Origin: Thermoplasmata archaeon
GTDB lineage: Archaea; Thermoplasmatota; Thermoplasmata; SG8-5; JAGLSY01
DNA: 12,860 nucleotides
Assembly: GCA_023137005.1 (NCBI GenBank)
Contig: JAGLQE010000033.1
Coordinates: 1 to 12,860, forward strand
Direction: 5' to 3'
Of this stretch, positions 1-12,860 are shown one piece after another. A program made the translations under genes and the position numbers. The notes under the pieces were generated by a model that saw only the letters and a program-made list of their open reading frames with translations, searched no databases and was not told the origin of the DNA. How positions within the stretch are numbered: the first letter of the stretch is position 1; the number at the start of each line of letters is the position of its first letter.

Positions 1-1
1 G

Positions 2-36
2 GGCCTGGACCCTAAATATTAAACACTAGCCAGGCC
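2..36 (-). terminator. Inverted repeat just downstream of cheR, possible 3'-end stem-loop
   Basis: Two perfectly complementary 7-base arms, GGCCTGG at 2-8 and CCAGGCC at 30-36, enclose a 21-base AT-rich loop. They begin 9 bases after the cheR stop codon in the direction of transcription. The position fits an operon-end structure. No T-run follows inside the window because the sequence ends, so it may instead be a processing site or a simple repeat. Seen directly: the arms and the position. Inferred: termination. Confidence 0.4.
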
Positions 37-44
37 TTCACTTT

Positions 45-884
45 TTAATCTTTTTCTTTTATATAGATCCTTTCTCTATTGTTCACAGGAACAAAAACGT
101 TCTTTGCCTCTCCCGAGAGCATCTCGGTCTTACCTATGACCAGATATCCGCCATTGTTCAGGGAATCGTAGAAATCCATCAACAGTTTTTCCTGCATTTC
201 CCTTGAAAAATATATCATCACATTCCTGTTAAAAATCATATCAAAGTTCACTGACTTCTTATCCTGAATGAGATTGTGCTTTTTGAATCGTACGAAATCC
301 TTTATTTCATCCTTTATCATATAAATATCATCATCGTTATTATAATCAAAATAGTGATCCAGAAGAGCCTCACTTACATTTTCCAATTGATCAATAGGAT
401 AAGCACCTATTTTTGCCTTTATCAATGACCCATCATCAATATCCGTACCATGTACGCTCACTAAAAAGTCATCAAAACGCTCACCAAGCAATTCCTTGAT
501 GATAATTGCAATGGAATAGGCTTCCTCACCACTGGAACTGCCAGCACTCCATATCCTGAAGACCCTTCTATTGCTATTAGTCTTATTGTAGATTATCTCA
601 GGTATGACCTCATTTCCCAGTACTTTGAACATTGACGGATCTCTGAAGAACTGGGTCACATTGATGGTGACCATGTCCATCAAGGTATCATATTCCCCAT
701 GATTCTTTTTGAGATACCTGATATAATCAGCATAATTATCCAGTTCATTGGCCCTGAGGCGCACTTGCAAGCGTCTTTTCAGATATTTATCCTTGTACTG
801 GGAACAATCCAGGTTAGTGTGTTCGAATATCATTCTTTTAAGAGCATTGAAGCTCGCATCATCATCCGCTATCAATATATTCAC
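45..884 (-). CDS. cheR: CheR, chemotaxis receptor glutamate O-methyltransferase
   Basis: CheR transfers methyl groups from S-adenosylmethionine to glutamates on the receptor's cytoplasmic helices, opposing CheB during adaptation. The 279 residues match the family length. Residues 15-70 form the all-alpha N-terminal domain with the basic YKDKYLKRRLQVR stretch. TINVTQFFRD (73-82) is the family's T-x-F-FR signature. WSAGSSSGEEAYS (112-124) is the SAM-binding loop; the usual Cys-Ser-Thr is here Ser-Ser-Ser. GTDID (146-150) supplies the acidic residue for the ribose, and FDMIFNRNVMIYF (214-226) is the conserved strand. The start is GTG, chosen because AGAGGT lies 5 bases upstream; an overlapping ATG is out of frame. 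It is the last gene of the operon, 43 bases after the winged-helix gene. The first residues (MNILIADDD) look like a response-regulator start but no receiver domain follows. Confidence 0.96.
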   Translation of the reverse strand: MNILIADDDASFNALKRMIFEHTNLDCSQYKDKYLKRRLQVRLRANELDNYADYIRYLKKNHGEYDTLMDMVTINVTQFFRDPSMFKVLGNEVIPEIIYNKTNSNRRVFRIWSAGSSSGEEAYSIAIIIKELLGERFDDFLVSVHGTDIDDGSLIKAKIGAYPIDQLENVSEALLDHYFDYNNDDDIYMIKDEIKDFVRFKKHNLIQDKKSVNFDMIFNRNVMIYFSREMQEKLLMDFYDSLNNGGYLVIGKTEMLSGEAKNVFVPVNNRERIYIKEKD

Positions 885-927
885 ATTATACCTCTATCAT
901 TTTATATCACTTTTAAAAATCATATTC

Positions 928-1176
928 TTAATTCTTCTGAATTCTGACAATTGCTAGGTATTTTTTTCCTTCAAAACCTCTTTGTTCCTCTAATTCTGCA
1001 ATCCACCCTAATTCTACCAGTTTGTTTACCTTCCTGTAGGCCGTGGCCTTTGGTATCTCTAAATTGGAGGATATCTCGCTTATGGTCTTCTCCCTGAAGC
1101 GAATGAAGTCCAGTATTTCCTGCACCTGGACCAGGGTGTCTTTGCCATTTTCCTTAATTACGCCATTCATGTTCAT
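928..1176 (-). CDS. Small winged helix-turn-helix DNA-binding protein
   Basis: This 82-residue protein is essentially a single winged helix. Residues 31-52 (TISEISSNLEIPKATAYRKV) read as a classic helix-turn-helix with the recognition helix at about 43-53, followed by NKLVELGWIAEL and a basic wing ending in a beta strand (KKYLAIVRI, 71-79). This architecture is typical of archaeal MarR/ArsR/TrmB-like small regulators. No effector domain is present. The start ATG at 1176 has AAGGAG a few bases upstream, and that Shine-Dalgarno sequence overlaps the stop codon of the preceding gene; a second in-frame ATG lies two codons on. It sits between the 79-aa gene and cheR in the che operon, so it is made together with the chemotaxis proteins. 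Its target is unknown; autoregulation of the operon is a guess. Confidence 0.85.
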   Translation of the reverse strand: MNMNGVIKENGKDTLVQVQEILDFIRFREKTISEISSNLEIPKATAYRKVNKLVELGWIAELEEQRGFEGKKYLAIVRIQKN

Positions 1177-1184
1177 TCTTCTCC

Positions 1185-1424
1185 TTATTTGATGCCGGAT
1201 ATCCTCCTTTTGAAGACGCGTTCCAGTTTTTTCCAGTTGCTGAGTGGTGTTACTGTTGATGCAATAGTCAATATCTCCATTATAAGAAGTGGCTCATCCT
1301 CTGGCTGAAGCGTATCTGGGCATTTTCCAATCCTCCTGCACTGCTCCTCAACCATGAACACACCGATATTGCCCACAATTTGCTCGGTCTCACGAGCGAT
1401 CTCCTGGAAAGATTTTGTTGCCAT
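1185..1424 (-). CDS. Stand-alone 79-aa EQC/IGK-domain protein, function unknown
   Basis: I do not recognise a named family. The protein is predicted helical, with EEQCRRIGKCPDTL at 26-39, LLIMEILTIAS at 46-56, and a P60-x3-W64 / F71-K72 segment near the end. It aligns without gaps, residue for residue, with positions 1-75 of the 262-aa protein at 11611-12399: E27, Q28, C29, I32, G33, K34, P36, L39, D43, L47, I48, P60, W64, F71 and K72 are identical. The start has GGAGG 6 bases upstream; a nearby ATG at 1428 is out of frame. It sits between cheD and the winged-helix gene, 21 and 8 bases away, so co-transcription with the che genes is near certain. A role as a protein-interaction or signalling module of this chemotaxis system is inferred from context only. 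Confidence 0.85.
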   Translation of the reverse strand: MATKSFQEIARETEQIVGNIGVFMVEEQCRRIGKCPDTLQPEDEPLLIMEILTIASTVTPLSNWKKLERVFKRRISGIK

Positions 1425-1445
1425 TCATGTCCTCCATTCTTCATA

Positions 1446-1931
1446 TCATATATTCTGCTCTATGTTCTCCGACACTTTCCTTATCGTAAGACCACCAGTG
1501 ACCATGTCCAGTATCACTGTTCTTCCACAATTTCCACCTGTTTCTTCTGATTTCAGTCTTATCTTTTCTTTCTTCAGGGTCTCTTTGGCAGCCTTGATAT
1601 TTCGCTCTCCCACATTCATAATATCCGAGCCGAGGAATGAGAACATCTGGGAACCTCCGGCTATCTTGGCAATTATCTTTTCTTTCTTGGCTCCCATTCT
1701 GAGCAAATCGTCCAATAAGATGTATATTGATGTGTCAACGTATTTGATCGGATTGTGTTTATCTCTACCCTCTCCATAATATGGGAGCATAGCGTGGATC
1801 ATACCACCAATTCTCTTGTCTGGCTCGTATAATATTATACTCAGACAAGAACCTATACCAATGCTTTTCAATATTGTTGGATTGGAGGCAACCCGATATT
1901 TTCCTACTTCAACAAGTATTTCTTTTGACAT
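1446..1931 (-). CDS. cheD: CheD, receptor glutamine deamidase
   Basis: CheD deamidates specific receptor glutamines to methylatable glutamates and, in CheC-containing systems, binds CheC and stimulates its phosphatase activity. The 161 residues match the family. GIGSC (25-29) holds the catalytic Cys29, IGGMIHAMLP (41-50) holds His46, and AKIAGGSQMF, the VGERN motif and GGNCGRTVILD follow in the usual order. The third member of the known Cys-His-Thr triad lies six residues before the cysteine; here that position is Ser23, a conservative swap that should keep a hydroxyl. Start ATG lies 6 bases after the cheC stop, with GTGAT upstream as a modest ribosome-binding site, suggesting translational coupling to cheC. 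That pairing mirrors the CheC-CheD complex. Confidence 0.96.
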   Translation of the reverse strand: MSKEILVEVGKYRVASNPTILKSIGIGSCLSIILYEPDKRIGGMIHAMLPYYGEGRDKHNPIKYVDTSIYILLDDLLRMGAKKEKIIAKIAGGSQMFSFLGSDIMNVGERNIKAAKETLKKEKIRLKSEETGGNCGRTVILDMVTGGLTIRKVSENIEQNI

Positions 1932-1937
1932 TATGCA

Positions 1938-2585
1938 TCACTTCACATTTATCTTGAACTTATCCATAATGGCCTTCTGTACATCATCATCTGGCATGAA
2001 GAGGAAATACCCATTGAACCTATCAGCATTTCTTATGAACTGAGTTTGGATTATTATGACATAATCCACCCTCCTGCCAATTTCCAAGACTGGGAACTGT
2101 AATACAGCTCCAAGCATGTCCACGGCTAAACCAGGCACGGTGGGGAATAAAGTGATACCCAGAAGATCGGACATTGCATTAAGATAGGCACAGGCGCACA
2201 CATTTCCAATCTCATTGATAGCTGATTCATCCTTAGAGGATAGTTCAGTAGATGTGCCTATGGGCCTTTTGAAGAACATATCCACAAGTTGAAGTGTATT
2301 TTCAAAGGGGAACAACATAAGGAGGTTATGGGTTCCACTGCCAGTAACCTGCATGAACACACCTGCAACTTTATCTGAGGGATCTCCAAACAATTCATTC
2401 TGCATATCCTCAATACCTATGATATGTGAGCTTGTCACATCTATCATGATGGTCTCCTTCAACATGCTGGATAATGCAGTAGCGGCATGGGCCGCGCCTA
2501 TATTGCCAATTTCTCGTAATGCATCCTTTTGGATATCTGTCAAATTTGCAATTCTCTCATAATTTATGCTTTTTTCTTCATTCAT
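1938..2585 (-). CDS. cheC: CheC, CheY-P phosphatase of the CheC/CheX/FliY family
   Basis: CheC dephosphorylates CheY-P and is modulated by CheD. The family active site is [D/S]-x3-E-x2-N-x22-P, usually present twice. The first half has D21, E25 and N28, but position 51, where the proline should be, is threonine. The second half is complete: S121, E125, N128 and P151. The rest (hydrophobic strand pairs around FMQVTGSGTHNLLMLFPF and the C-terminal YVIIIQTQFIRN and YFLFMPDDD) fits the pseudo-two-fold fold at 215 residues, close to the usual length. Start ATG follows AAGGAGG and overlaps the stop of the TPR gene by four bases (ATGA). cheD follows 6 bases later. The missing proline may weaken or alter the first site; this is inference. 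Confidence 0.95.
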   Translation of the reverse strand: MNEEKSINYERIANLTDIQKDALREIGNIGAAHAATALSSMLKETIMIDVTSSHIIGIEDMQNELFGDPSDKVAGVFMQVTGSGTHNLLMLFPFENTLQLVDMFFKRPIGTSTELSSKDESAINEIGNVCACAYLNAMSDLLGITLFPTVPGLAVDMLGAVLQFPVLEIGRRVDYVIIIQTQFIRNADRFNGYFLFMPDDDVQKAIMDKFKINVK

Positions 2586-3532
2586 ACATTGCCTCCTTTT
2601 CTCATGTTATTCTCATCAATAGTAGATGTTAATGTACTGCCTTTTAGCACATTTTCAATTTTAGCGCATCCTTTATCCAGGAGCTCTATTGCCTCCTTGG
2701 TGCGCCCTTTTCTATTATACTGGATCGCCTGGATAATATAACCCCTCTCTTTGTCAATGTTTATTGATAGATCCTTTGCAAAAATAAGTAATTCCTTGAG
2801 GTCCGCAGCCTTTTTTGATAATAATTTCTTTAATTCTTCAGGGTCTTGGAGCTCTAATGTGGATATCTCCTCATCATCAATATCTTCATTTTCTCCAATG
2901 TGTTCATATTCTCCAGATGCTTCGATGACCTGATCCAGAGCGGCCCTTGATACCACGTGTGAATAGCATTCTGCGGCATTCAATGGCTCCTCCATCTTAT
3001 TGAAGAGGTCTGCTTTTGCCATCCAGGCGTTCTGATTATGTGGATCTATGTTAAGGATTTTATCAAATGACACTAGAGCCTTGATATATTCCTCCATGTT
3101 CATCAGGATTGAACCTCTGGCATACCATAGCTCGATATTATCTGGTGATATCAATAGCTCATTATCATAATGTGATAATGCTTTTTTATTCGTATCCTCT
3201 TCTGTTTCATCTTCTGTGTCACCCGATACCTTCAATGTTGTTCCACATTCATAACACACAGATTCATAAGTGCTGATAACTGTTTCACAAAGTGGGCATT
3301 TGCTTTCATGGCCTATCAATTCCTCTGTAAATTCTGTTGCACAGATATCCTCGAGGTCTTTCTCACGCAGAGCCGTCTTGATCTCCGCCGCAGATACCCG
3401 CCCGATCCCATCTATCTGAATAAGTTCGACAACACTGGCTCTCTTGAGCTCCCTCAATGTTCTGTATCCTGCATCGTATAATATATCTGCTTTTAGCAAT
3501 CCTATCCCGGGAAGCTTGATGAGTTCCTTCAC
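2582..3532 (-). CDS. Helix-hairpin-helix / zinc-ribbon / TPR protein of the che operon
   Basis: This 316-residue protein combines three parts. Residues 1-58 contain two helix-hairpin-helix motifs, the hairpins being LPGIG (7-11) and IDGIG (40-44), as in DNA-repair and topoisomerase tails. Cys79, Cys82, Cys93 and Cys96 form a CxxC-x10-CxxC zinc-binding knuckle. Residues about 115-195 carry two TPR-like repeats (NIELWYARGSILMNMEEYIKAL, then NQNAWMAKADLFNKMEEPLNAA), and a further helical pair with an acidic linker follows (about 225-295). Such HHH-zinc-TPR proteins are known mostly from archaea, without a defined role. The start is GTG, immediately before the first HHH; the ribosome-binding site is weak and close (AGGGA), and no other in-frame start precedes it. 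It lies between cheA (38-base gap) and cheC (4-base overlap). Its job could be scaffolding by TPR, or linking the system to nucleic acid; neither is shown. Confidence 0.88.
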   Translation of the reverse strand: MKELIKLPGIGLLKADILYDAGYRTLRELKRASVVELIQIDGIGRVSAAEIKTALREKDLEDICATEFTEELIGHESKCPLCETVISTYESVCYECGTTLKVSGDTEDETEEDTNKKALSHYDNELLISPDNIELWYARGSILMNMEEYIKALVSFDKILNIDPHNQNAWMAKADLFNKMEEPLNAAECYSHVVSRAALDQVIEASGEYEHIGENEDIDDEEISTLELQDPEELKKLLSKKAADLKELLIFAKDLSINIDKERGYIIQAIQYNRKGRTKEAIELLDKGCAKIENVLKGSTLTSTIDENNMRKGGNV

Positions 3533-3570
3533 ATCCCTGTTTGTGGATCTTTTATTACCATTATTGCCTA

Positions 3571-5517
3571 TTATGTGAAAGCCCCCACATCTATTATCAT
3601 CGCAACCGAGCCATCTCCAAGGATAGTTGCACCTGAGAAGTATTTGGATCTTCGCAATTCTCCACCAACTGTCTTGACCACTATCTCCTGCTGGCCGATG
3701 AAATCATTCACTATCAGGCCCACTCTGGTAGAATCCTTTTCTACAATTACTGCTGACAGACCAGAATCATCTCGTGTACTAGCCCCTATAAATTCATTAT
3801 TAAGGTCAAATAATGGTAATATCTCATCTCTTAATTTGAACATATCGCGTTTGCCCACAGTATGGACCATTTCATGATTGATCAGGACTGTTTCTGCAAC
3901 ATTCTCCAGTGGTAATGCATATGTTTCATCTCCAATATTGATGAGCAATGCCTTGATTATTGCCATTGTCGGTGGTAGCTTGATGGTCATCTTAGTACCC
4001 TTACCGACATCTGTTTTGATGTTTACCGTGCCGCCGAGTGAATTGATCTTACTGTAGACCACATCCAGTCCTACGCCTCTTCCTGAAATATCCGTGATCT
4101 CTTTTGCAGTGGTAACACCAGGCAGGAACATCAAGGATAATCGTTCATCTACATTCATTGCCTCTGCATCCTTCTCGCTGACATTTCCTTTCTCAATGGC
4201 TGCTTTCGTGAGCCTGTCAACATCAATACCCTTTCCATCATCGGATATGTCTATCACAATGTAACTTTGGTCCCTGTGAGCTGATAAGCGGATGGTTCCA
4301 GCTTTTTCCTTGCCTGCTTTCATACGAGCATCACTGGGCTCGATACCATGATCTATGGCATTTCTGAGCAAGTGCACGAGTGAATCCCCTATCTCATCCA
4401 GAAGACCACGATCCATCTCGATGTCGCCACCTTCAAGGACCAGATTTATCTCTTTATCCCCATCTTTGGCCATGTCCCTTACCATTCTCGGGAATAGCCT
4501 GAAAATATGGTCTATGGGAACCATTCTCATCTGGAGCACATAATGCTGCAGATCCTCGGTCAGCCTATTGCTTGCCTTCAATGCCACATCAAGGTTCTTA
4601 TTCTTATGTTGAGATGCTATTTGATTGATCTGGATATTATTTATCATATTCTCCCCGACAAGATTGAGAAGTGCATCCAGAAGCTGTACATTGACGCGAA
4701 TTGTTTCGCCGGCCGAGATGGTCTTTGATCTATTGTTCTCCTCTACTTTTTGATTGCTCAATGAATCTATTGGCTCGGAAATGATATTATTAACCTCTGG
4801 AGTTTGATATATAACATCCTCTATTTCTTCCTCATTTTTGGATGTGGAAAATATGATCTGAAATGATCGAGACCCTTCCAAGATGCCGATTTCTTCTTTA
4901 TCTGGAACAGAACGAATTATTGAACCGAACTCCTTTAGGTCTCTGAATATCTGGTGGGCCCTGCCCTCTACCAATTTACATTTCTCATCGATGATGATCG
5001 TGATCAAAGAGGTATTCGAGCCTTTTTTTATTTCAGCTCCCAGTGTTTTCTTTTCCTCTGGCTTCAACATAAATATTATATCTTTTAAATCAAGTATCTC
5101 ATCTGCAGTATTGCTTTCTTTATCTGCTGTTTTTTCTGCTTCAGATATCAAAGAGGCATTTAATTTAGAGATCAGTTCCTTTCCATGTATCTGTTTTTTT
5201 TCCTTGGCAACATTGTCGATCATGGTCTCCAATGTATCCACACCTTCGAATAGGATATCGATATTTTCCTGGTTGAAATCTATCTCCTTGCTTCGTAACT
5301 TGTCCAACAGGTCTTCCATCAGATGAGATACATTTTGTATCTCCATATGTCCAAGGATGGCCGAGGTCCCTTTCAATGTGTGAATGACCCGAAAGAAATC
5401 ATTCAAAGCATCTATATTCTTATGATCCTTTTCCAGGATAAGAAGAAGCTTGTTCATCTCTGTCAATTGTTCATTTGCCTCACCAATGAAAGATTCATTA
5501 TATTTCGAAATGTTCAT
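3571..5517 (-). CDS. cheA: CheA, chemotaxis histidine kinase
   Basis: CheA autophosphorylates in trans in response to receptor state and passes phosphate to CheY and CheB. At 648 residues all five domains are visible. P1 (1-120) has the phospho-site His46 in IHTLKGTSA. A low-complexity linker leads to a P2-like docking domain (about 165-240). P3, the dimerisation helices, covers about 268-335. The P4 ATPase domain has the N-box LLRNAIDHGIEP (383-394), the G1 box DDGKGID (426-432), the F-box region around SLMFLPG and the G2 box GRGVGLDVV (479-487). P5, the CheW-like regulatory domain, is about 518-648. Nothing essential is missing. Start ATG directly abuts the cheB stop (TGAATG), with AAGGAGTGAT as a near-perfect ribosome-binding site inside the end of cheB. 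Confidence 0.98.
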   Translation of the reverse strand: MNISKYNESFIGEANEQLTEMNKLLLILEKDHKNIDALNDFFRVIHTLKGTSAILGHMEIQNVSHLMEDLLDKLRSKEIDFNQENIDILFEGVDTLETMIDNVAKEKKQIHGKELISKLNASLISEAEKTADKESNTADEILDLKDIIFMLKPEEKKTLGAEIKKGSNTSLITIIIDEKCKLVEGRAHQIFRDLKEFGSIIRSVPDKEEIGILEGSRSFQIIFSTSKNEEEIEDVIYQTPEVNNIISEPIDSLSNQKVEENNRSKTISAGETIRVNVQLLDALLNLVGENMINNIQINQIASQHKNKNLDVALKASNRLTEDLQHYVLQMRMVPIDHIFRLFPRMVRDMAKDGDKEINLVLEGGDIEMDRGLLDEIGDSLVHLLRNAIDHGIEPSDARMKAGKEKAGTIRLSAHRDQSYIVIDISDDGKGIDVDRLTKAAIEKGNVSEKDAEAMNVDERLSLMFLPGVTTAKEITDISGRGVGLDVVYSKINSLGGTVNIKTDVGKGTKMTIKLPPTMAIIKALLINIGDETYALPLENVAETVLINHEMVHTVGKRDMFKLRDEILPLFDLNNEFIGASTRDDSGLSAVIVEKDSTRVGLIVNDFIGQQEIVVKTVGGELRRSKYFSGATILGDGSVAMIIDVGAFT

Positions 5518-6567
5518 TCAATCACTCCTTCCTTCAAGAAATTTCAGGATCACAGAGGCTATTTCGCTCAATGGTACTACCTTATCCACACCGCCAAGAG
5601 CAATTGCTTCCTTCGGCATTCCAAAAACAACGCAAGACTCCTTGTTCTGTGCAATGGTTTGTCCACCATTACCCTTTATGTCTTTCATTCCCTTGGCACC
5701 ATCCGCACCCATGCCAGTTAATAGAACACCTATGACATTCTTCCCATGGATATTGGCTGCTGATGTCATCATGACATCCACCGAAGGCCGTATCGAGTTC
5801 ACTTTCGGTTTTTTATTCAAGGCAATTCTGCCATTGACCACCTCCATATGGTAATCACCAGGGGCGACTAATGCCAAACCAGGAATGATACGGTCTCCAT
5901 GCTCCGCCTCTTTCACCTCAACTGATGACTGCCAATTCAAACGCTCAGCAAATGATTTCGTAAAACCTTCTGGCATGTGCTGGGTTATAATTATCCCTGC
6001 AGGAATATCTCTAGGTAGAAGGGACAATACCTCCAGAAGGGCCTTTGGCCCCCCAGTTGATGCACCTATGGCAATGATCTTACTCTTTCCATAAACTTTT
6101 TTCCGAGTATATATCAAAGGTCTGACGATCCTCGGGCGGGATATCTTTTTCACATTGACTTCAGAGGCTACTCTTACCTTATTGATGATGTCATGTCCGA
6201 TCTTTTCAATGTCAAACGACAGGCTACCAGATGTTTTTGAAATGAAGTCCACTGCACCATGGTCCAGTGATTTCATCACAATGTCCGCATTACGTTTGTC
6301 CATGGCACTTATCATGATAGTAGGCGTGGGTTTCTTGCCCATTATATGCTGTAATGCTGTTAATCCATCCATCTTTGGCATTTCTATATCCATTGTGATG
6401 ACATCGATGTTCTGGCTCGAAGCTATCTCTACAGCTTCTGCTCCATTCTTAGCAGTTGCGACCACCTTGATATCTGGATCAGATTCAAGTAGATCTTTCA
6501 ATAGCTTCCTCATTATTGCAGAGTCATCTGCCACCAGGACGCGTATGGGTTGGCTCACTTTTCTCAA
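5518..6567 (-). CDS. cheB: CheB, receptor methylesterase / response regulator
   Basis: CheB removes receptor methyl groups, activated by phosphorylation of its receiver domain by CheA. Residues 8-125 are the receiver, with D14/D15, phospho-acceptor D60 (ITMDIEMP) and K111. A linker follows, then the catalytic domain (about 162-349) with Ser170 in IGASTGGPKA, His197 in TQHMPEGF and Asp289 in LLTGMGADGAKGM: the full Ser-His-Asp triad. Length (349) is normal. The annotated start is a TTG overlapping the cheY stop by four bases (TTGA). A GTG three codons downstream (6558-6556) is a credible alternative, since neither has a strong ribosome-binding site; the receiver is intact either way. cheA begins immediately after its stop codon. 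Confidence 0.97.
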   Translation of the reverse strand: MRKVSQPIRVLVADDSAIMRKLLKDLLESDPDIKVVATAKNGAEAVEIASSQNIDVITMDIEMPKMDGLTALQHIMGKKPTPTIMISAMDKRNADIVMKSLDHGAVDFISKTSGSLSFDIEKIGHDIINKVRVASEVNVKKISRPRIVRPLIYTRKKVYGKSKIIAIGASTGGPKALLEVLSLLPRDIPAGIIITQHMPEGFTKSFAERLNWQSSVEVKEAEHGDRIIPGLALVAPGDYHMEVVNGRIALNKKPKVNSIRPSVDVMMTSAANIHGKNVIGVLLTGMGADGAKGMKDIKGNGGQTIAQNKESCVVFGMPKEAIALGGVDKVVPLSEIASVILKFLEGRSD

Positions 6568-6944
6568 CCCGTTATACTTCTTTCTATGGCTGAGATCAGG
6601 TCATCGGGCTCGAAGGGCTTGATGATATAATCCCTAGCACCAGCATCTAATGCATCCATTACCAATGATTTCTGATGTAATCCACTGATGACCACGATTC
6701 TTGCTTTTGGATCATGTTCGATGATGGTCTTTATGGCATCTATGCCATGTGTTGACGGCATGACCACATCCATTGTGACAACGGTTGGTTCATATTCCTT
6801 GTATCTCACAAGGGCCTCATCACCATCCTTTGCCTCACCAGCAATAATATATCCCTTATCTTTAAGGGAATCCTTGATCATCTCCCGCATGACCTCCGAG
6901 TCGTCAACGACCAATACGGTCTTTCCATTGTTTTCGTTTTCCAT
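6564..6944 (-). CDS. cheY: CheY, chemotaxis response regulator
   Basis: A single receiver domain of 126 residues. It carries the CheA-derived phosphate to the motility machinery; in archaea this reaches the archaellum through adaptor proteins that are absent from this window. D14 and D15 coordinate Mg2+, D59 (VVTMDVVMP) is the phospho-acceptor, S87 in VISG takes the Thr/Ser switch position and K109 is in YIIKPFEPDD. No output domain follows, which separates it from transcriptional regulators. Start ATG has AAGGAGG 8 bases upstream, inside the end of cheW. The stop overlaps the cheB start. Confidence 0.96.
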   Translation of the reverse strand: MENENNGKTVLVVDDSEVMREMIKDSLKDKGYIIAGEAKDGDEALVRYKEYEPTVVTMDVVMPSTHGIDAIKTIIEHDPKARIVVISGLHQKSLVMDALDAGARDYIIKPFEPDDLISAIERSITG

Positions 6945-6946
6945 GT

Positions 6947-7492
6947 TTAATCCTCCTTAATTTTTACGGGCATGGATGGTGAGGCCACCGCCCCACCGCC
7001 GAAATCTGCCACTTTGTCGATCTGTGCAATTTCCTCTTCGCTCAATATACTGTCCAGGTTCAACAACATCACAAGGTTGCCCGGCAATTTACAGATGCCT
7101 TTTAGATAACTGGAATCTATATTGTTGGTCACGATCTCAGGCGGAGGTGCGATATCATCTGGAGATACACGGATAACTTCAGAAACAGCATCCACTATCA
7201 TTCCAAATTGGAAAGAGCCCACCTCACCGATAATTATCCTTGATTGTACACTTCTCTCAATTGAATCCATTGAAAAGCGTTTCCTCATATCGATGACCGT
7301 TGTGATCTGGCCTCTGAGATTGACCACACCCTCTATGAAATCAGCCATTCTTGGAACCGTTGTGATCTTTTCCAATCTGACGATCTCATGCACCTGGGCA
7401 ACATCAATAGCAAATGTCTCATCTCCGAGGATGAAGGAGACGAGTTGTACCTCGTCCCCTTTGAGTTCTATTTTTCCTCTATCTTTTGCCAT
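6947..7492 (-). CDS. cheW: CheW, receptor-kinase coupling protein
   Basis: CheW bridges the receptor tip and the CheA P5 domain in the signalling array. The 181 residues hold one CheW domain: VSFILGDETFAIDVAQVHEIVRL (18-40) starts the first SH3-like half, GVVNLRGQITTVIDMRKRF (55-73) is the hallmark segment including the conserved Arg60, and FGMIVDAVSEVIRV plus YLKGICKL complete the second half. The last 20 residues (FGGGAVASPSMPVKIKED) form a flexible tail beyond the usual end. Start ATG follows GGAGGAGTGAT, lying at the very end of the receptor gene; only one base separates the receptor's stop from it. Tight coupling to the receptor gene suggests matched expression. Confidence 0.97.
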   Translation of the reverse strand: MAKDRGKIELKGDEVQLVSFILGDETFAIDVAQVHEIVRLEKITTVPRMADFIEGVVNLRGQITTVIDMRKRFSMDSIERSVQSRIIIGEVGSFQFGMIVDAVSEVIRVSPDDIAPPPEIVTNNIDSSYLKGICKLPGNLVMLLNLDSILSEEEIAQIDKVADFGGGAVASPSMPVKIKED

Positions 7493-7493
7493 A

Positions 7494-10400
7494 TCACTCC
7501 TCCTTTGGAAGCTCTATTCCTCTTTTCAGAAGTGATTCTCCCATGTTTGCGGGTATGGGTGTCTTGTCCTTTGGTCGTGGTACTGGAGCCTCGTTCTTCT
7601 TTATTTTCTTCATTTTCTTAGGAGGGGCTTTTTGGGTCATTTTATGCTTCTTTGTAACCTCATCTCCAAGTTTGAATCGAGCAGCACTATTCTGTAGGGA
7701 TAATGCCATTTCTGAAAGCTCCTGGGCCTGCGCGGTCATCTCTTCCATTGAAGCAGTCAATTCTTCAGTAGATGATGCGGATTCCTCACTTGCCGAGGCG
7801 GATTCTTCTGCAATACTGGCTATACCATCCACTGCTGCAGCCACTTGCTGAGTGCCTGCTTTCTGCTGTTGTGTTGCTGCTGATATTCCACCGATCTCAC
7901 TATTGACCTTCTCTGTTGCATCCGCGATCTGCTGGAAGGAGGAATCTGTCTGTGAGACCAGAGCCATTCCCTCTTCTACCTCTTTGGTTCCCTGTTTCAT
8001 GGATCCAACTGCTTTATCGGTCTCTGATTGGATCTCTTTGATCATCTTGGAGATCCGTTCTGCGGCCTCTCTGGAATCCTCTGCAAGGGCTTTCACCTCA
8101 TCTGCTACCACAGCAAAGCCACGACCCTGGTCACCAGCTCTGGCTGCTTCAATAGCCGCATTCAAAGCAAGTAGATTGGTCTGGTCAGTGATATTGGTAA
8201 TGACATCCACGATCTCACCGATCTCTTTGGATCTATCCCCGAGGGTCTCTATGGTCTCTGATGAGCTGGCTACGACCTTCTGGATCTCTTTCATTTTCTT
8301 TACTGTCTGCTCAACCGCTTGCCTGCCTTCTGAAACATTTGAAGTTGCCACCGTGGCCGACTCTACGCTAGCTTCCGCTCTCATAGATACATCATCGACA
8401 GATGTGGATACCTGCTTCATCGCTCCAGCAGTTTCCTCTACCTTGTCAGCTTGCTCCTGTGATCCCTTGGATATCTGATTGATGGCGGAAGACACCTGCT
8501 GTGTGCTGGCATTCATTTCTTCAGCGGAGCTTGCCATTTCCTGAGATGTAGATGCTACTGTAGCAGATGTGGCCTGTATCTCACTTACTAGGCTCCTTAG
8601 ATTCTCCTGCATTTTTATGAAAGCCTGAACTATCTCGTCTATCTCACCTTTTGCCTGTACCTTTATATCCATAGATAGGTCGCCATCAGCAATTGCCTGG
8701 GCCACAATATTTAGTTCTCTTAGTGGTCCTGCTGTATTGGTAAGCATCCCTTGGTAGGCTGTTACCATTTCTCCAATTTCGTCATTTCCGGCCTTTACGT
8801 CCAGTTTCGCGTTGAAATCCCCTTTGGCCAAGGATTTCGACCCATCCATCAATTTAGTGACTGGCCTGGTGATACTTCTTGAGAAGAAATAACCGATTAT
8901 GATCCCAAGTATAATGGCTATGATCGCAACGATTATAGATATCTCTATGGCAGAAGTTGTGGAATCCTTAACTTCATCATGGGAAGCGATGGCTGCAGCG
9001 GATGCTGTATTTGCTTCTTCCGTCGCAACCTGCATATCATCTTTTAGAGTGACCAACAAATCTTCAATTTCGGATTCTATTTCCTCTCCAATTGTATGGA
9101 AATCGCTCAAAGCCAAGGCGGCTGCGGCTTTTGCAGCCTGTGCATTATCATAGGAGTCGAACACTGTTTGAGCTTCAACAAGCATCATTGTATGTTCCAG
9201 ATCGATTGTGTCTAGAGTATCTTGTTCCTGGCTTCCAGGGTCAATCAAATCATCCAGTTGAGTGAATTTTGATGCAAAGTCAATCTCGTATTGATTGAAC
9301 AGTGTTAAAGATCCGGAGTCTCCTAAAGCATAAGCATCGACCGCGGACAATTCACTTCCTAGGATTACCTGTAACTGCAATACATACTCTACCATAAACG
9401 AAGTCTCGTTCCAAACTATTTCGTCCTGGGTCCTATTTGATTCCATATGGGCGACCAGTACAGTAAGATTTAGCTCCATCTCTATTATTTCACTGTTCAA
9501 TAATCCCTCTATAATGATCATCTCGTCATGTAATGCAAAAATTCCTGGGCTGGAGTGGGTAATAGGATTTTCCACAATCTCTATGAAATGCTGGAACTCG
9601 TTTATGACAACGTTAATTTCTATTGTATAGTTAGGTTCGGCTGCCAGCAGCACTGTGGCATTTTCAATGAATATATTCCTGTAAACTGTGAAGTTGGTAG
9701 CTACATCATCTCCTTTAAGGTATTCAAATACCGTAACTTCGGCTTGCAGGGCTGCGATTTCCATATTATAAATAAATTTGCTGCTGTTCAAGTCCGTTAC
9801 TAAAAGGTTTAGATCATCCAGGTTATGCTCGATATGTAATATTTCGGTTTCCATCAGATGTTCTTCGGATACCAAAGCATCGTAATCTGCAAATAAGGTC
9901 AACGCTTGAGTGGCCATATGATCATGTTCGTTGATCACAGAGTCTACAATTTCTTGGTCCACTGTTCCAGATGCCACCAAAGCATCCAAAGCAGTCATGT
10001 CTTCATCGTATTTTTGCTCCATGTCGTTGAATTCTGCCAGGGCACCTGAATTACCCAAAAGATATGAATTTATGGCAGCCAGTTGATATGCTAGATCTAA
10101 TTGAATGTCAGTCGCATAGGATTCTGATTCAACAGCATTATCCATATCTATTTTTGCCAGGACCTTAATGTGATCAATATCTGCTACCAGTGCATCTATC
10201 TCTCCATTAACATGATGAACTTCTTCTTCATAGGAGCTTCTTGCCTCATTCAATTCATGTTCAGCTGCTATTTCTATATCATATTCGTTAAATATGCCCT
10301 CAGTGTCTTCTGCAGCACCGTAAAACTCCTCGAACACATCCTCAAGATTGGATATCTCTGCGCTATGATTGGCTCCGGTAAGACTCATTAATTCTTCCAA

Positions 10401-10706
10401 ATGATGCTCTACCTCCTGTTTAAATGAAAGATATTTTGCCTTGCTGGTATTATCTCCCAATAGATATTCGGCAGCGGCGTCCTCCATAGCGTATACCAAG
10501 CCCTCAATCTTATTTCCATGCTCAGTGGCAGGGAAATCAATATCAACGAGTTCCCCCAAGGAATTGTCTATTTGGTGAATATCCTCTTCCATATGATCGA
10601 CTTCGGTGTTCACGTCGGTCAATGACACGAATACCACAGCGCCCACAACACCAGATAACAAAGCAACTATGAGAAATGCGGCTATCATCTTTGGGCCAAG
10701 CTTCAT
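7494..10706 (-). CDS. Methyl-accepting chemotaxis receptor with a giant four-module ectodomain
   Basis: This 1070-residue receptor senses an external signal and controls CheA. A membrane helix at about 7-29 follows a short basic start, the ectodomain runs about 30-585, and the second membrane helix is at about 586-608. Two HAMP-like units follow (about 605-655 and 658-705), then the antiparallel signalling helices with the conserved tip ([19 protein letters not shown], 840-858) and arms of about 150 residues each. A Lys/Pro-rich tail (about 1018-1070) has no recognisable CheR-tethering pentapeptide. The ectodomain shows four copies of a helical module, each with a Y-x-x-G-D/N-type motif (81-85, 215-219, 329-333, 459-463) and, 57-61 residues after its glycine, an F-x-x-Y/H-D motif. 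Nine N-x-S/T sequons fall between 86 and 435; the protein has no cysteine and many histidines in the first half. The ATG overlaps the stop of an upstream 31-aa ORF; an in-frame stop 9 codons upstream fixes the start. The ligand cannot be read from the sequence. Confidence 0.96.
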
Positions 10707-10798
10707 TTTACCAAAACCTTGATGCTCGTGGTGTTTGTTTCACCTGCTAAACTGGTATTTTCTCTATTCATTCTGTTTTTTATTTTCAAAGATTTCAT
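10703..10798 (-). CDS. Possible 31-aa leader ORF coupled to the receptor gene
   Basis: A short ORF begins with ATG preceded by GGAGGT at ideal distance and ends in a TGA that overlaps the receptor's ATG (ATGA). The peptide starts [19 protein letters not shown] and is basic and hydrophilic, with no membrane segment. The receptor has only a weak ribosome-binding site of its own, so translating this ORF could deliver ribosomes to the receptor start. Seen directly: the ribosome-binding site and overlap. Inferred: translational coupling. The peptide itself may have no function. Confidence 0.45.
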
Positions 10799-10802
10799 AC
10801 TT

Positions 10803-10865
10803 TTACCTCCGTTCTATTTCAATTATTCTTACGCCTTGTTTTCCAATTTTTATGACTGTGATCAT
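10803..10865 (-). CDS. Possible 20-aa ORF between the KOW-like gene and the receptor leader
   Basis: The ATG shares one base with the stop of the 138-aa gene (TAATG), has GAGGGG 7 bases upstream, and the ORF ends in a TAA lying within the GGAGGTAA that precedes the next ORF. The peptide (starting MITVIKIGKQGVRI) alternates hydrophobic and charged residues like a beta hairpin. It is so short that coincidence is a real alternative, and it might also be a frameshifted continuation of the 138-aa protein. Confidence 0.3.
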   Translation of the reverse strand: MITVIKIGKQGVRIIEIERR

Positions 10866-11281
10866 TATTTGACCCCTCTTTCGATATCGCTCTCAGGCAA
10901 TCCAACTTCCAGGCCTTCCACCTTGATCAAAAACCAATTCTGCTTGTCATTGTTATCTAATCTACCTGCGATCACTCCACATTTCATGTGGAATATTCCC
11001 GGCTGGGTTATTATTACACGTTCTCCAATTTCAATGATATTTTCCTGATCGGCGCTTCTGCGCTTATTTTCATTATTAACTTGGTTAATCTGTTTGTTTT
11101 TCATCATATGGCGATCTATTAACAAACTTTCACCTCCACGGTTTATTTTTATATTGAACTGCATAATCTTGACATATTCCTCTCTAGGTAATTTAAAAAA
11201 AGCAGGGAGCAAGTAGCTCCCTGTAATGGAAGAAGGGTTGATCTTCAAATTCTCATCATATAGTTGATAAACAAGTTTCAT
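10865..11281 (-). CDS. 138-aa protein with KOW/SH3-like C-terminal domain
   Basis: No named family is recognised. Residues 84-130 (IGERVIITQPGIFHMKCGVIAG, then a strand WFLIKVEGLEVGLPESDIE) have the pattern of a KOW/SH3-like barrel, in which a G-x-V-x-I strand is followed by a G-rich turn and another strand. Residues 55-80 are a basic, Asn/Gln-rich linker. The N-terminal 40 residues are less convincing and contain the third hairpin of this region. Start ATG at 11281 has GGGGGTG 6 bases upstream; an alternative in-frame ATG is at 11164 (residue 40, MQFNIKINRGG), which would leave the hairpin in the 5' untranslated region. It lies directly upstream of the receptor in the direction of transcription, so a chemotaxis or RNA-related regulatory role is possible but not shown. 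Confidence 0.65.
   Translation of the reverse strand: MKLVYQLYDENLKINPSSITGSYLLPAFFKLPREEYVKIMQFNIKINRGGESLLIDRHMMKNKQINQVNNENKRRSADQENIIEIGERVIITQPGIFHMKCGVIAGRLDNNDKQNWFLIKVEGLEVGLPESDIERGVK
11195..11223 (-). terminator. Stem-loop plus T7, third of three tandem elements
   Basis: Arms CAGGGAGC (11203-11210) and GCTCCCTG (11216-11223) form a perfect 8-bp stem with a 5-base loop, followed on the minus strand by C and seven T residues. It falls within codons 19-29 of the 138-aa ORF if that ORF starts at 11281. It could act as an intragenic attenuator or as evidence that the true start is further downstream. Confidence 0.5.
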
Positions 11282-11298
11282 AATACACCCCCATTTAG

Positions 11299-11329
11299 AA
11301 AAAAATGATGAGAGGATTTAAGCCTCTCA
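11299..11329 (-). terminator. Stem-loop plus T7, second of three tandem elements
   Basis: Arms TGAGAGG (11309-11315) and CCTCTCA (11323-11329) form a 7-bp stem, followed on the minus strand by ATCA... and T7. A C8 tract lies just upstream on the same strand (plus-strand G-run ending near 11345). It sits in the region leading to the 138-aa gene, whose ribosome-binding site GGGGGTG follows within 15 bases of the T-run. Confidence 0.55.
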
Positions 11330-11356
11330 CCATACGTGGGGGGGGAGATGATAATT

Positions 11357-11378
11357 TTGATATATTGGATAATATATG
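11357..11378 (-). promoter_or_regulatory. TATA-rich element between the first two hairpins, candidate promoter
   Basis: On the minus strand this reads CATATATTATCCAATATATC, two TATA-like boxes just after the first hairpin's T-run and about 75-95 bases before the 138-aa start. It could initiate the transcript carrying the 138-aa gene and the che operon, making the second hairpin a leader structure. AT-rich background makes TATA calls uncertain. Confidence 0.3.
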
Positions 11379-11410
11379 AAAAAAAAGTATGAGGGGTTGT
11401 TAACCCCTCA
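11379..11410 (-). terminator. Stem-loop plus T8, first of three tandem elements
   Basis: Arms TGAGGGGTT (11390-11398) and AACCCCTCA (11402-11410) form a perfect 9-bp stem with a 3-base loop, followed on the minus strand by T8 (11379-11386). It lies 40 bases after the stop codon of the 52-aa gene and is a good terminator candidate for the upstream two- or three-gene unit. In archaea the T-run alone can terminate transcription; the hairpin is extra. Confidence 0.65.
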
Positions 11411-11449
11411 TGGGGGGAAGAGATCATCCTAAAAATAGAGGAAAAGTAA

Positions 11450-11608
11450 TTATTGGTCATTTACTACCTCCATTGCTTCAACAAGTTGAGTTGACATTTC
11501 AGAAAGCATAGATTCTATTCTTGTCAATCTGCATTGTAGACAATCGCAACTTATCTCAATATTATCTTTTTCAAATTCTATATGATTTTTATTAATCTTA
11601 TGATACAT
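11450..11608 (-). CDS. 52-aa small protein with CxCxxC motif
   Basis: A short gene begins 2 bases after the stop of the 262-aa gene. The peptide starts MYHKINKNHIEFEKDN, contains C21, C23 and C26 (SCDCLQC), then an amphipathic, possibly coiled-coil helix (RLTRIESMLSEMSTQLVEAMEVV). The ribosome-binding site would be the G-run GGGGGGTTGGG at the end of the upstream gene, somewhat distant. The reading frame, the contiguity with the preceding gene and the protein-like helix support a real gene. The clustered cysteines could bind a metal, perhaps in an oligomer. No family is recognised. Confidence 0.6.
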   Translation of the reverse strand: MYHKINKNHIEFEKDNIEISCDCLQCRLTRIESMLSEMSTQLVEAMEVVNDQ

Positions 11609-11610
11609 AT

Positions 11611-12399
11611 TCAAGCCCAACCCCCCGTTTCAAAAGTGTTTGGATCGGCCTCAATTATTATCTGAGTATGTCCATCATCCAAAGGAAATAGTTCAACACT
11701 ACCAGCACGCCCAGTCCTGAATTTTTGAATTCCCTCACATATACCTAGTACAAATTGCTGTAATTGATCTGAGTTAATTCCATTGAAAGAATATATACAA
11801 CAGCCATTAGCTACTGATACTGAATGGTCATCTAAGATAAACATCTCATCAATATTGCTGAAAGCCTCGATTTGCTCATTACTTAGGATTCCAAACCAAT
11901 AATGCATGGGCATGTTGGGGTTGTTTATAATTATATATTCACCAATCACTTTGGCTCGGTTAAATCCAGTAGTTGCGGATAAATTTTCAATTTCTGTTAA
12001 TATCTCATTCAATATGGATATTGGATACCAACCCTCATTCCGTATTTTTGAAGAGGGTATCGTTATTTTTTCTAGTTGTTCTAAGCCAATTGTGCCTCTT
12101 TTGAAAGAAAAGAAACTCATAACTCTTTTAATAACTCCTCCCTTTACTTTTCCAAAGTCAGTGACTTCTTCATTAAACAATTCCTTAAATCGCTCGTCCA
12201 CTATTTCCCATTTATCTTTCGGGATCGAATCCCCAAGTTGTGACATCAATGATAATATCAAGAATCTGCTATCGTCTTGTGCAAGATCTTCCGGAGTTTT
12301 ACCGATTATCTCACATTGCTCATGAATTATCTCTTTTGCTTCGCCTACACCCGCCGAATGCAAAATTTCAACCAATTCATCAAACAGTTCCGAAGACAT
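11611..12399 (-). CDS. 262-aa two-domain protein: EQC/IGK domain plus unknown C-terminal domain
   Basis: Residues 1-75 match the stand-alone 79-aa protein at 1185-1424 with no gaps (shared E27-Q28-C29, I32-G33-K34, P36, L39, D43, L47-I48, P60, W64, F71-K72). A basic linker (about 82-100) leads to an alpha/beta domain (about 105-262) with GWYPISILNEILTEI (123-137), a Cys-Cys pair (CCIYSF) and a final strand pair around GSVELFPLDDGHTQIIIE. That layout faintly recalls heme-NO-binding/V4R-like sensor folds, but I cannot support that beyond a hint. No membrane segment or signal peptide is seen, so it is cytoplasmic. Start ATG has GAGGT 8 bases upstream. It follows the RHH gene by 49 bases and abuts the 52-aa gene. 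A sensory or adaptor role in the chemotaxis system is inferred from the shared domain. Confidence 0.85.
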   Translation of the reverse strand: MSSELFDELVEILHSAGVGEAKEIIHEQCEIIGKTPEDLAQDDSRFLILSLMSQLGDSIPKDKWEIVDERFKELFNEEVTDFGKVKGGVIKRVMSFFSFKRGTIGLEQLEKITIPSSKIRNEGWYPISILNEILTEIENLSATTGFNRAKVIGEYIIINNPNMPMHYWFGILSNEQIEAFSNIDEMFILDDHSVSVANGCCIYSFNGINSDQLQQFVLGICEGIQKFRTGRAGSVELFPLDDGHTQIIIEADPNTFETGGWA

Positions 12400-12448
12400 T
12401 TTTTAAACCTCAATTATCTTTCATTTTTCTATAAAATCCATAATTAGA

Positions 12449-12625
12449 TCAATCTGTACTCTCAACATTTATCTTGATAATACTGTTCACAGTAGCTGTG
12501 CTGACCATGGATATCCATGTAGAAGATTTCAGTCCAATTTTCTTTGACTGTTTTTTTATTTTATCGTATGTTGCTTTGTCAAGGGTTATTGTCACCCGTA
12601 CTGTTTTTGCTTCATTTTTTGCCAT
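12449..12625 (-). CDS. Ribbon-helix-helix (CopG/Arc-like) DNA-binding protein
   Basis: A 58-residue protein with the RHH layout: the DNA-contacting strand TVRVTITLD (8-16), helix A ATYDKIKKQSKKIG (18-31), a short turn and helix B STWISMVSTATVNSII (35-50). Proteins of this family dimerise through the strand and usually repress their own operon or act as antitoxins. No toxin-like partner is adjacent: the next gene is the 262-aa protein, 49 bases on. Start ATG at 12625 has GGATG and AGGA upstream, the latter rather close. The upstream region carries a cluster of TTTACATG half-sites around a TATA-like box, fitting autoregulation. It may also control the 262-aa and 52-aa genes, which lie downstream on the same strand. 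Confidence 0.8.
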   Translation of the reverse strand: MAKNEAKTVRVTITLDKATYDKIKKQSKKIGLKSSTWISMVSTATVNSIIKINVESTD

Positions 12626-12655
12626 GTCCTATGCACATCCGCATCTAACATGGGC

Positions 12656-12702
12656 TTTACATGCTCATATATGGTGCGAAAAAAACATGTAAATCATGTA
12701 AA
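12656..12702 (-). promoter_or_regulatory. Operator/promoter cluster upstream of the RHH gene
   Basis: Three copies of the 8-base word TTTACATG (or its complement CATGTAAA) occur at 12656-12663, 12686-12693 and 12695-12702, the first inverted relative to the other two. The palindrome ACATG-N5-CATGT lies at 12685-12699. The TATA-like CATATATGG (12666-12674) is between them, about 41 bases upstream of the RHH start codon. Repeats flanking a TATA box are what an autorepressing RHH dimer would bind. Confidence 0.55.
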
Positions 12703-12860
12703 GTTTTTTTAAATAATTCTCTTCGTTCTTCATCGATTCAACCACGCTTGCTATCAAGAACTGCCCTGATCTTCAATTATAGTGATGAAGCATCCTACAA
12801 TTTGAAGATCATTTATTGAATCATCCCCAAGCCCTAATACCGCAACCTTTAGGTTTGCGG
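12703..12860. repeat. Non-coding region with nested inverted repeats and an edge hairpin
   Basis: No credible gene is seen here. A 9-base inverted repeat, GATCTTCAA (12768-12776) and TTGAAGATC (12802-12810), is nested inside GATTCAA (12735-12741) and TTGAATC (12816-12822). At the very edge, CCGCAA (12840-12845) pairs with TTGCGG (12855-12860), with an inner CC/GG, forming a strong hairpin. These may be a terminator of an off-window gene, a structured RNA or regulatory palindromes. Confidence 0.5.

Follow-up and report, generated by a model that had tools for sequence, protein, structure and literature searches.

A Thermoplasmata chemoreceptor with a four-module helical ectodomain, probably a doubled two-bundle sensor

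The receptor and its repeated modules

The window analysed here is a stretch of 12,860 nucleotides from a Thermoplasmata archaeon (assembly GCA_023137005.1, contig JAGLQE010000033.1, positions 1 to 12,860). Its minus strand encodes a chemoreceptor (MCP) of 1070 aa, with chemotaxis (che) genes downstream (Table 1). The MCPsignal domain PF00015 is matched with 168.4 bits against a cut-off of 34.6, and this receptor is the sole PF00015 match in the genome, which is 79% complete. Two transmembrane (TM) helices predicted by hydropathy enclose an ectodomain of 560 residues and are followed by a HAMP domain. No hydropathy peak above threshold lies between residues 27 and 585. The C-terminal tail (window 7494-7640, minus strand) is rich in lysine and proline.

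Two short motifs recur in the ectodomain. The Y-L-L-G-D/N type is present as YLLGD, YLLGN, YLKGD and YALGD (from residues 81, 215, 329 and 459), and the F-x-x-Y/H-D type as IFNEYD, LFADYD, IFALHD and VFDSYD (from residues 138, 271, 389 and 515). The distances from the G to the Y/H are 58, 57, 61 and 57. Loose versions of both patterns are confined to these four places each when the entire protein is scanned. When residues 30-585 were shuffled 200,000 times, correctly spaced pairs occurred with a mean of 0.000165 and a maximum of one, and four were never reached. All eight positions and four distances of the original prediction are thus confirmed, and the recurrence lies far above chance.

The motifs had been taken to mark four diverged repeats of a single helical module, M1 to M4, a claim supported by self-alignment and by held-out profiles. 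The first half of the ectodomain aligns with the second at a score of 184 (shuffles 50.6 ± 8.8, none of 1000 as high), a significant self-similarity which pairs residues 71-299 with 312-550, most of the length of a half. The alignment of M2 with M4 scores 147, again unmatched in 1000 shuffles, and includes a gapless block of 104 residues. M1-M2 and M2-M3 score 66 and 67 (one shuffle in 1000 as high for each) and M1-M3 scores 50 (5 in 1000); the M1-M3 portion adds signal by itself, at 5 of 3000 in each shuffle type. When each module is tested against profiles from which it was held out, M1, M2 and M4 are each exceeded by none of 5000 decoys and M3 by six, or by 12 of 5000 when only the protein's own other modules are used. 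On this sequence evidence the four modules are homologous beyond the motifs, most clearly M2 and M4; M3 has diverged furthest and shows no detectable link to M4 when the two are compared by themselves.

The successive Y-x-x-G-D/N turns are spaced by 134, 114 and 130 residues, which makes the M2-M3 junction the odd one out. The modules thus appear to be arranged as two pairs (M1+M2 and M3+M4) rather than as four equals, and two copies of a two-bundle unit is the strongest claim that the comparisons suggest. A further feature is an H-x-x-M whose M precedes seven residues and then the F. It takes the form EHxxM in M2, in M4 and in the second module of the relative described below, and LHxxM in the first module of that relative; M1 and M3 are without that histidine. 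This H-x-x-M is a possible candidate site.

Table 1. Features of the window, with residue numbers of the 1070-aa receptor
Feature	Residues	Window position	Strand	Basis or remark
Chemoreceptor (MCP) gene	1070 aa	7494..10706	minus	PF00015 match
TM1	8-26	10629..10685	minus	hydropathy
Ectodomain	about 27-585			between TM1 and TM2
Module M1	39-172	10191..10592	minus	first bundle of putative unit I; motif, self-alignment, profile match
YLLGD turn of M1	81-85	10452..10466	minus	helix end in low-confidence model
FNEYD of M1	139-143	10278..10292	minus	motif
Module M2	173-300	9807..10190	minus	second bundle of putative unit I; motif, self-alignment, profile match
YLLGN turn of M2	215-219	10050..10064	minus	motif
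FADYD of M2	272-276	9879..9893	minus	motif; EHxxM just upstream
Module M3	301-416	9459..9806	minus	first bundle of putative unit II; weakest copy
Putative chain reversal between units, LNSSKFIYN	about 304-320	9747..9797	minus	rod closure
YLKGD turn of M3	329-333	9708..9722	minus	motif
FALHD of M3	390-394	9525..9539	minus	motif
Module M4	417-550	9057..9458	minus	second bundle of putative unit II
YALGD turn of M4	459-463	9318..9332	minus	motif
FDSYD of M4	516-520	9147..9161	minus	motif; EHxxM just upstream
TM2	586-604	8895..8951	minus	hydropathy
HAMP domain	607-657	8736..8888	minus	PF00672, 86.2 bits
MCP signalling domain	782-965	7812..8363	minus	PF00015
CheW, CheY, CheB, CheA, HhH/TPR protein, CheC, CheD, HTH, CheR		45..7492	minus	downstream of receptor

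Relatives and known sensors

A search with the whole protein matched 15 of 61 genomes, and one with residues 1-585 alone matched only the receptor's own. The search for homologues with other module numbers, proposed along with the original prediction, led to a two-module receptor of 743 aa (P0002) in the archaeal genome G022. It is 51-53% identical to the window receptor from query residue 501 onward, and its ectodomain measures 252 residues between predicted membrane helices. The extreme C-terminus, SLKKRGIDVE in the G022 receptor, looks conserved between the two. Ribosomal protein S24e, a marker which matched 4 of 14 control genomes, all four of them archaea, is present in the window genome and marks it as archaeal; S19e was found in G022, with no match in the incomplete window genome.

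A PF00015 survey of 300 genomes of the class matched 36, of which 33 lay above the cut-off, at 52 places representing 51 distinct frames. Three frames of 200-260 aa and three below the cut-off were left out. Of the 45 frames examined, 21 have two membrane helices, predicted by hydropathy, that enclose more than 50 residues; the rest comprise 15 frames without a predicted membrane helix, seven with closely spaced helices, one with a single helix and one cut at its start. Among the 21, ectodomains of 180-193 residues account for 19, the others being those of G022 (252) and of the window receptor (560). These single-bundle-sized, 4HB-like receptors share the membrane receptor plan, the HAMP and the MCP signalling domain, and carry Y-x-L-x-Y-G and W-x-x-Y at places comparable to the module motifs. 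The one that was scanned scores 25.9 bits for 4HB_MCP_1 (PF12729), just below the cut-off of 27.

Profiles of the module, run over overlapping genome sets, found the window genome and G022 among 400 genomes of the class, G022 among 79 of its relatives, and the window genome and G406 among 389 genomes of the phylum. The G406 match was taken as chance, as its frame resembles a Lon-type protease by eye, and no credible module was found by these searches outside the window genome and G022. In a large protein collection, the receptor query recovered only itself among 7995 scored candidates and the P0002 query none of 3522; a pair-alignment query, under a length rule that excludes proteins above about 1020 aa, recovered none of 7998. 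A scan of genome contigs gave four loci, matching in TM2/HAMP or the cytoplasmic part, and sequence searches of the PDB gave no sensor-bundle match. A literature search, which mostly did not extend to subscription papers, turned up no description of a chemoreceptor sensor with four bundles.

In a tree of the signalling domain, with nine soluble receptors trimmed to a shorter length and three very long rows of an earlier tree dropped, a 100/100 split, subject to a long-branch warning, separates the window and G022 receptors from the single-bundle-sized ones. The two are not united as a clade (approximately unbiased test, p 0.032 against). A series of one, two and four bundles is therefore a comparison and not a demonstrated line of descent.

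The closest known architectures include that of the HBM sensors. The HBM domain of McpS from Pseudomonas putida (PDB 2yfa, 2yfb) is one unit of about 250 residues, whereas the window protein probably has two in a row in about 560, with the same short motifs retained in all four bundles. The sensor domains of TorS, a histidine kinase, and of PilJ (3i9y, 3i9w, 7zjr, 8wdf) likewise have one unit per chain. Neither the window ectodomain nor P0002 matches the Pfam HBM profile at E values of 10 or below, so the receptor is described as HBM-like in predicted architecture and not as a member of that family. For 4HB_MCP_1 the window protein reaches 18.3 bits, over residues 1-43 only, and P0002 28.1, just above the cut-off; for CHASE3 (PF05227) the window protein falls short at 20.8 bits against 28, over residues 462-563. 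McpZ reportedly has three concatenated bundles. That receptor, from Sinorhizobium meliloti (PDB 8f7n; Salar et al. 2023, Proteins 91:1394), is bacterial, whereas the window receptor is archaeal, with four modules and, in its weak model, a helix pattern with two tips. The GlnX study (PMC9769921) describes a helical tandem module of Corynebacterium glutamicum, a duplicated sensor modelled as a receptor dimer in one chain. Both proteins duplicate a helical sensor on one chain, but GlnX duplicates a single bundle with its membrane anchors, whereas the repeat in the window receptor is a probably bimodular unit with no inner membrane helix by hydropathy.

Arrangement of the modules

The two-module ectodomain of G022 is well modelled. 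Its pair is predicted to fold like one HBM domain in which the second bundle forms an insert within the first. In both modules the motif lies at turns, as YLLGE and the looser YIISGGD. Among the closest solved folds, by entry title, are complexes of TorS with TorT and of LytS with XylFII; TorT and XylFII are binding proteins. The model of the window ectodomain is of low confidence, with a predicted local distance difference test (pLDDT) score of 48; M4 is its best part (66-83 by tens, residues 431-520). Larger alignments misplaced helices and were excluded from folding. The halves are co-linear in sequence with G022, and residues 302-558 match TorS/PilJ from this weak model. The Y-x-x-G-D/N motif was expected at the same structural place in each copy, and in this low-confidence model every one of the four lies at the end of a helix.

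These observations point to an ectodomain that is probably a tandem duplication of a two-bundle, HBM-like sensor, with two units that probably stand side by side. Unit I would consist of M1+M2 after TM1 and unit II of M3+M4 before TM2, so that one chain would contain about twelve helices and form four four-helix bundles. In each unit the chain would first go up and down, then ascend through a long helix, descend and ascend once more, and return through a second long helix. Such a path would place the second bundle within the first and direct the Y-x-x-G-D/N turns oppositely. The two units would most likely pack as an intrachain pseudo-dimer. Several points weigh against this arrangement. The rod arithmetic which sets the units next to each other uses low-confidence helix ends, and the chain reversal near residues 304-320 is not seen in the weak model, which draws 251-328 as a single helix. 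Pairwise, M1-M4 is weak (score 47, 46 of 1000 shuffles as high) and M3-M4 is without signal (score 28, 622 of 1000).

The original prediction placed four complete bundles one after another, in a sensor that would reach far out from the membrane. Four homologous modules at near-equal motif spacing are in keeping with such a stack, but only 54 residues separate TM1 from the first turn and 65 separate FDSYD from TM2, at most about 81 and 98 Å (1.5 Å per helix residue), which is too short for a four-bundle tower topped by M4. The intervals of 71, 52 and 64 residues from F-x-x-Y/H-D to the next motif are also short for two more full helices, and the halves pair like a single HBM unit. A serial stack is thus very improbable: the four-module helical ectodomain is supported, and its projection as a tower is not. 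Bundles joined in one rod by successive insertion, extending the McpZ fold, are less improbable but still unlikely. A rod predicts one hairpin tip and a very long last helix, whereas short-short tips occur at two places in the weak model (195-216/221-245 and 429-460/465-487), in which the last helix has at most 93 residues outside the membrane. Taking its helix list literally, with a reversal at each of the ten breaks left after joining the first pair, gives eleven helices that misplace TM2. A chain of continuous helices in the manner of spectrin was discarded on reasoning alone.

Four ordinary four-helix bundles packed laterally, GlnX-like but without inner membrane helices, would fit the prevalence of single-bundle-sized receptors in the class sample and the resemblance of their motifs to those of the modules. 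The G022 modules are, however, predicted as one inserted HBM-like unit and not as two separate bundles, and this arrangement is as poorly favoured as the serial stack. That the similarity reflects only coiled-coil composition is the least credible explanation of all. The sequence is charged and helical and the two pairwise scores just given are weak, but for M1, M2 and M4 this is rejected by shuffles of residues and of local windows, by reversed sequences and by held-out profiles. An assembly duplication was also discarded: in four pairs the copies share short DNA matches only, the best being M2-M4 with 35 identities, 10 mismatches and 4 gaps. The only tandem repeat that the window is reported to contain is located elsewhere.

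The che cluster and the receptor's input

The intergenic gaps from the receptor to CheR are 43 bases or less, except for 269 before the HTH gene. The window genome carries CheA, B, C, D, R, W and Y together with the receptor. No match to archaellin (PF01917) was found in this 79%-complete genome; the gene may be missing from the incomplete sequence or the cluster may drive something else. Between CheA and CheC lies an HhH/TPR protein (2582-3532, minus strand) with HhH_5 at residues 2-57, a cysteine-pair region and TPR at 134-176; it has no match among the 14 G022 open reading frames (ORFs) compared. A conserved protein stands beside both che clusters (window 11611-12399 and G022 locus L090 1524-2387, 26% identical), with no convincing Pfam or NCBIfam assignment. 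Upstream of the window receptor is a 138-aa ORF (10865-11281, minus strand) of no convincing family, at the place where G022 has a binding-protein pair.

That pair (L090 2693-4777), directly upstream of the two-module receptor, encodes a 409-aa binding protein, recognised as LivK-like by eye, and a 279-aa TM-HAMP protein that lacks a signalling domain. Together with the TorS-TorT and LytS-XylFII folds, it makes docking of a solute-binding protein a fair rival to direct binding of a small molecule, although a less likely one. According to PMC5126104, the HBM receptor CtpL reads PstS. Against docking, one neighbourhood is weak evidence, no binding-protein gene was recognised in the window, and PF13458, the one family searched, had no match in the 79%-complete genome.

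Under the duplicated two-bundle arrangement, binding of a ligand or solute-binding protein at the interfaces between bundles would displace the last long helix. The movement would pass through TM2 and HAMP to the signalling hairpin, controlling CheA through CheW, with adaptation via CheR, CheB, CheC and CheD. In 4HB and HBM receptors, ligands are located at the dimer interface (PMC5126104). By analogy with the GlnX model, an interface of this kind could arise within a single chain that carries two units. More tentatively, and with rather less than even prospects, the ectodomain may comprise two bimodular sensors, each complete, that are covalently joined into an intrachain pseudo-dimer, with ligand sites of the interchain type formed within one chain.

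If that were so, the homodimer would have eight bundles and several kinds of interface, and ligand binding would be uncoupled from dimerisation. With the single- and double-module relatives, it would provide a sequence record of bundle growth from one to two to four. A four-bundle sensor that arose from the doubling of a two-bundle unit would add to the bundle numbers of one, two (HBM) and, reportedly for McpZ, three. Since short motifs are retained in every bundle, it becomes possible to test from sequence whether bimodular sensors arose through internal duplication, and the tandem unit would show if a single chain can build a ligand site normally formed between two. Such an ectodomain would be an unusually large helical sensor, possibly with several docking sites. 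No other MCP was found in this 79%-complete genome, so the input of the receptor may be the main chemotactic signal of the cell.
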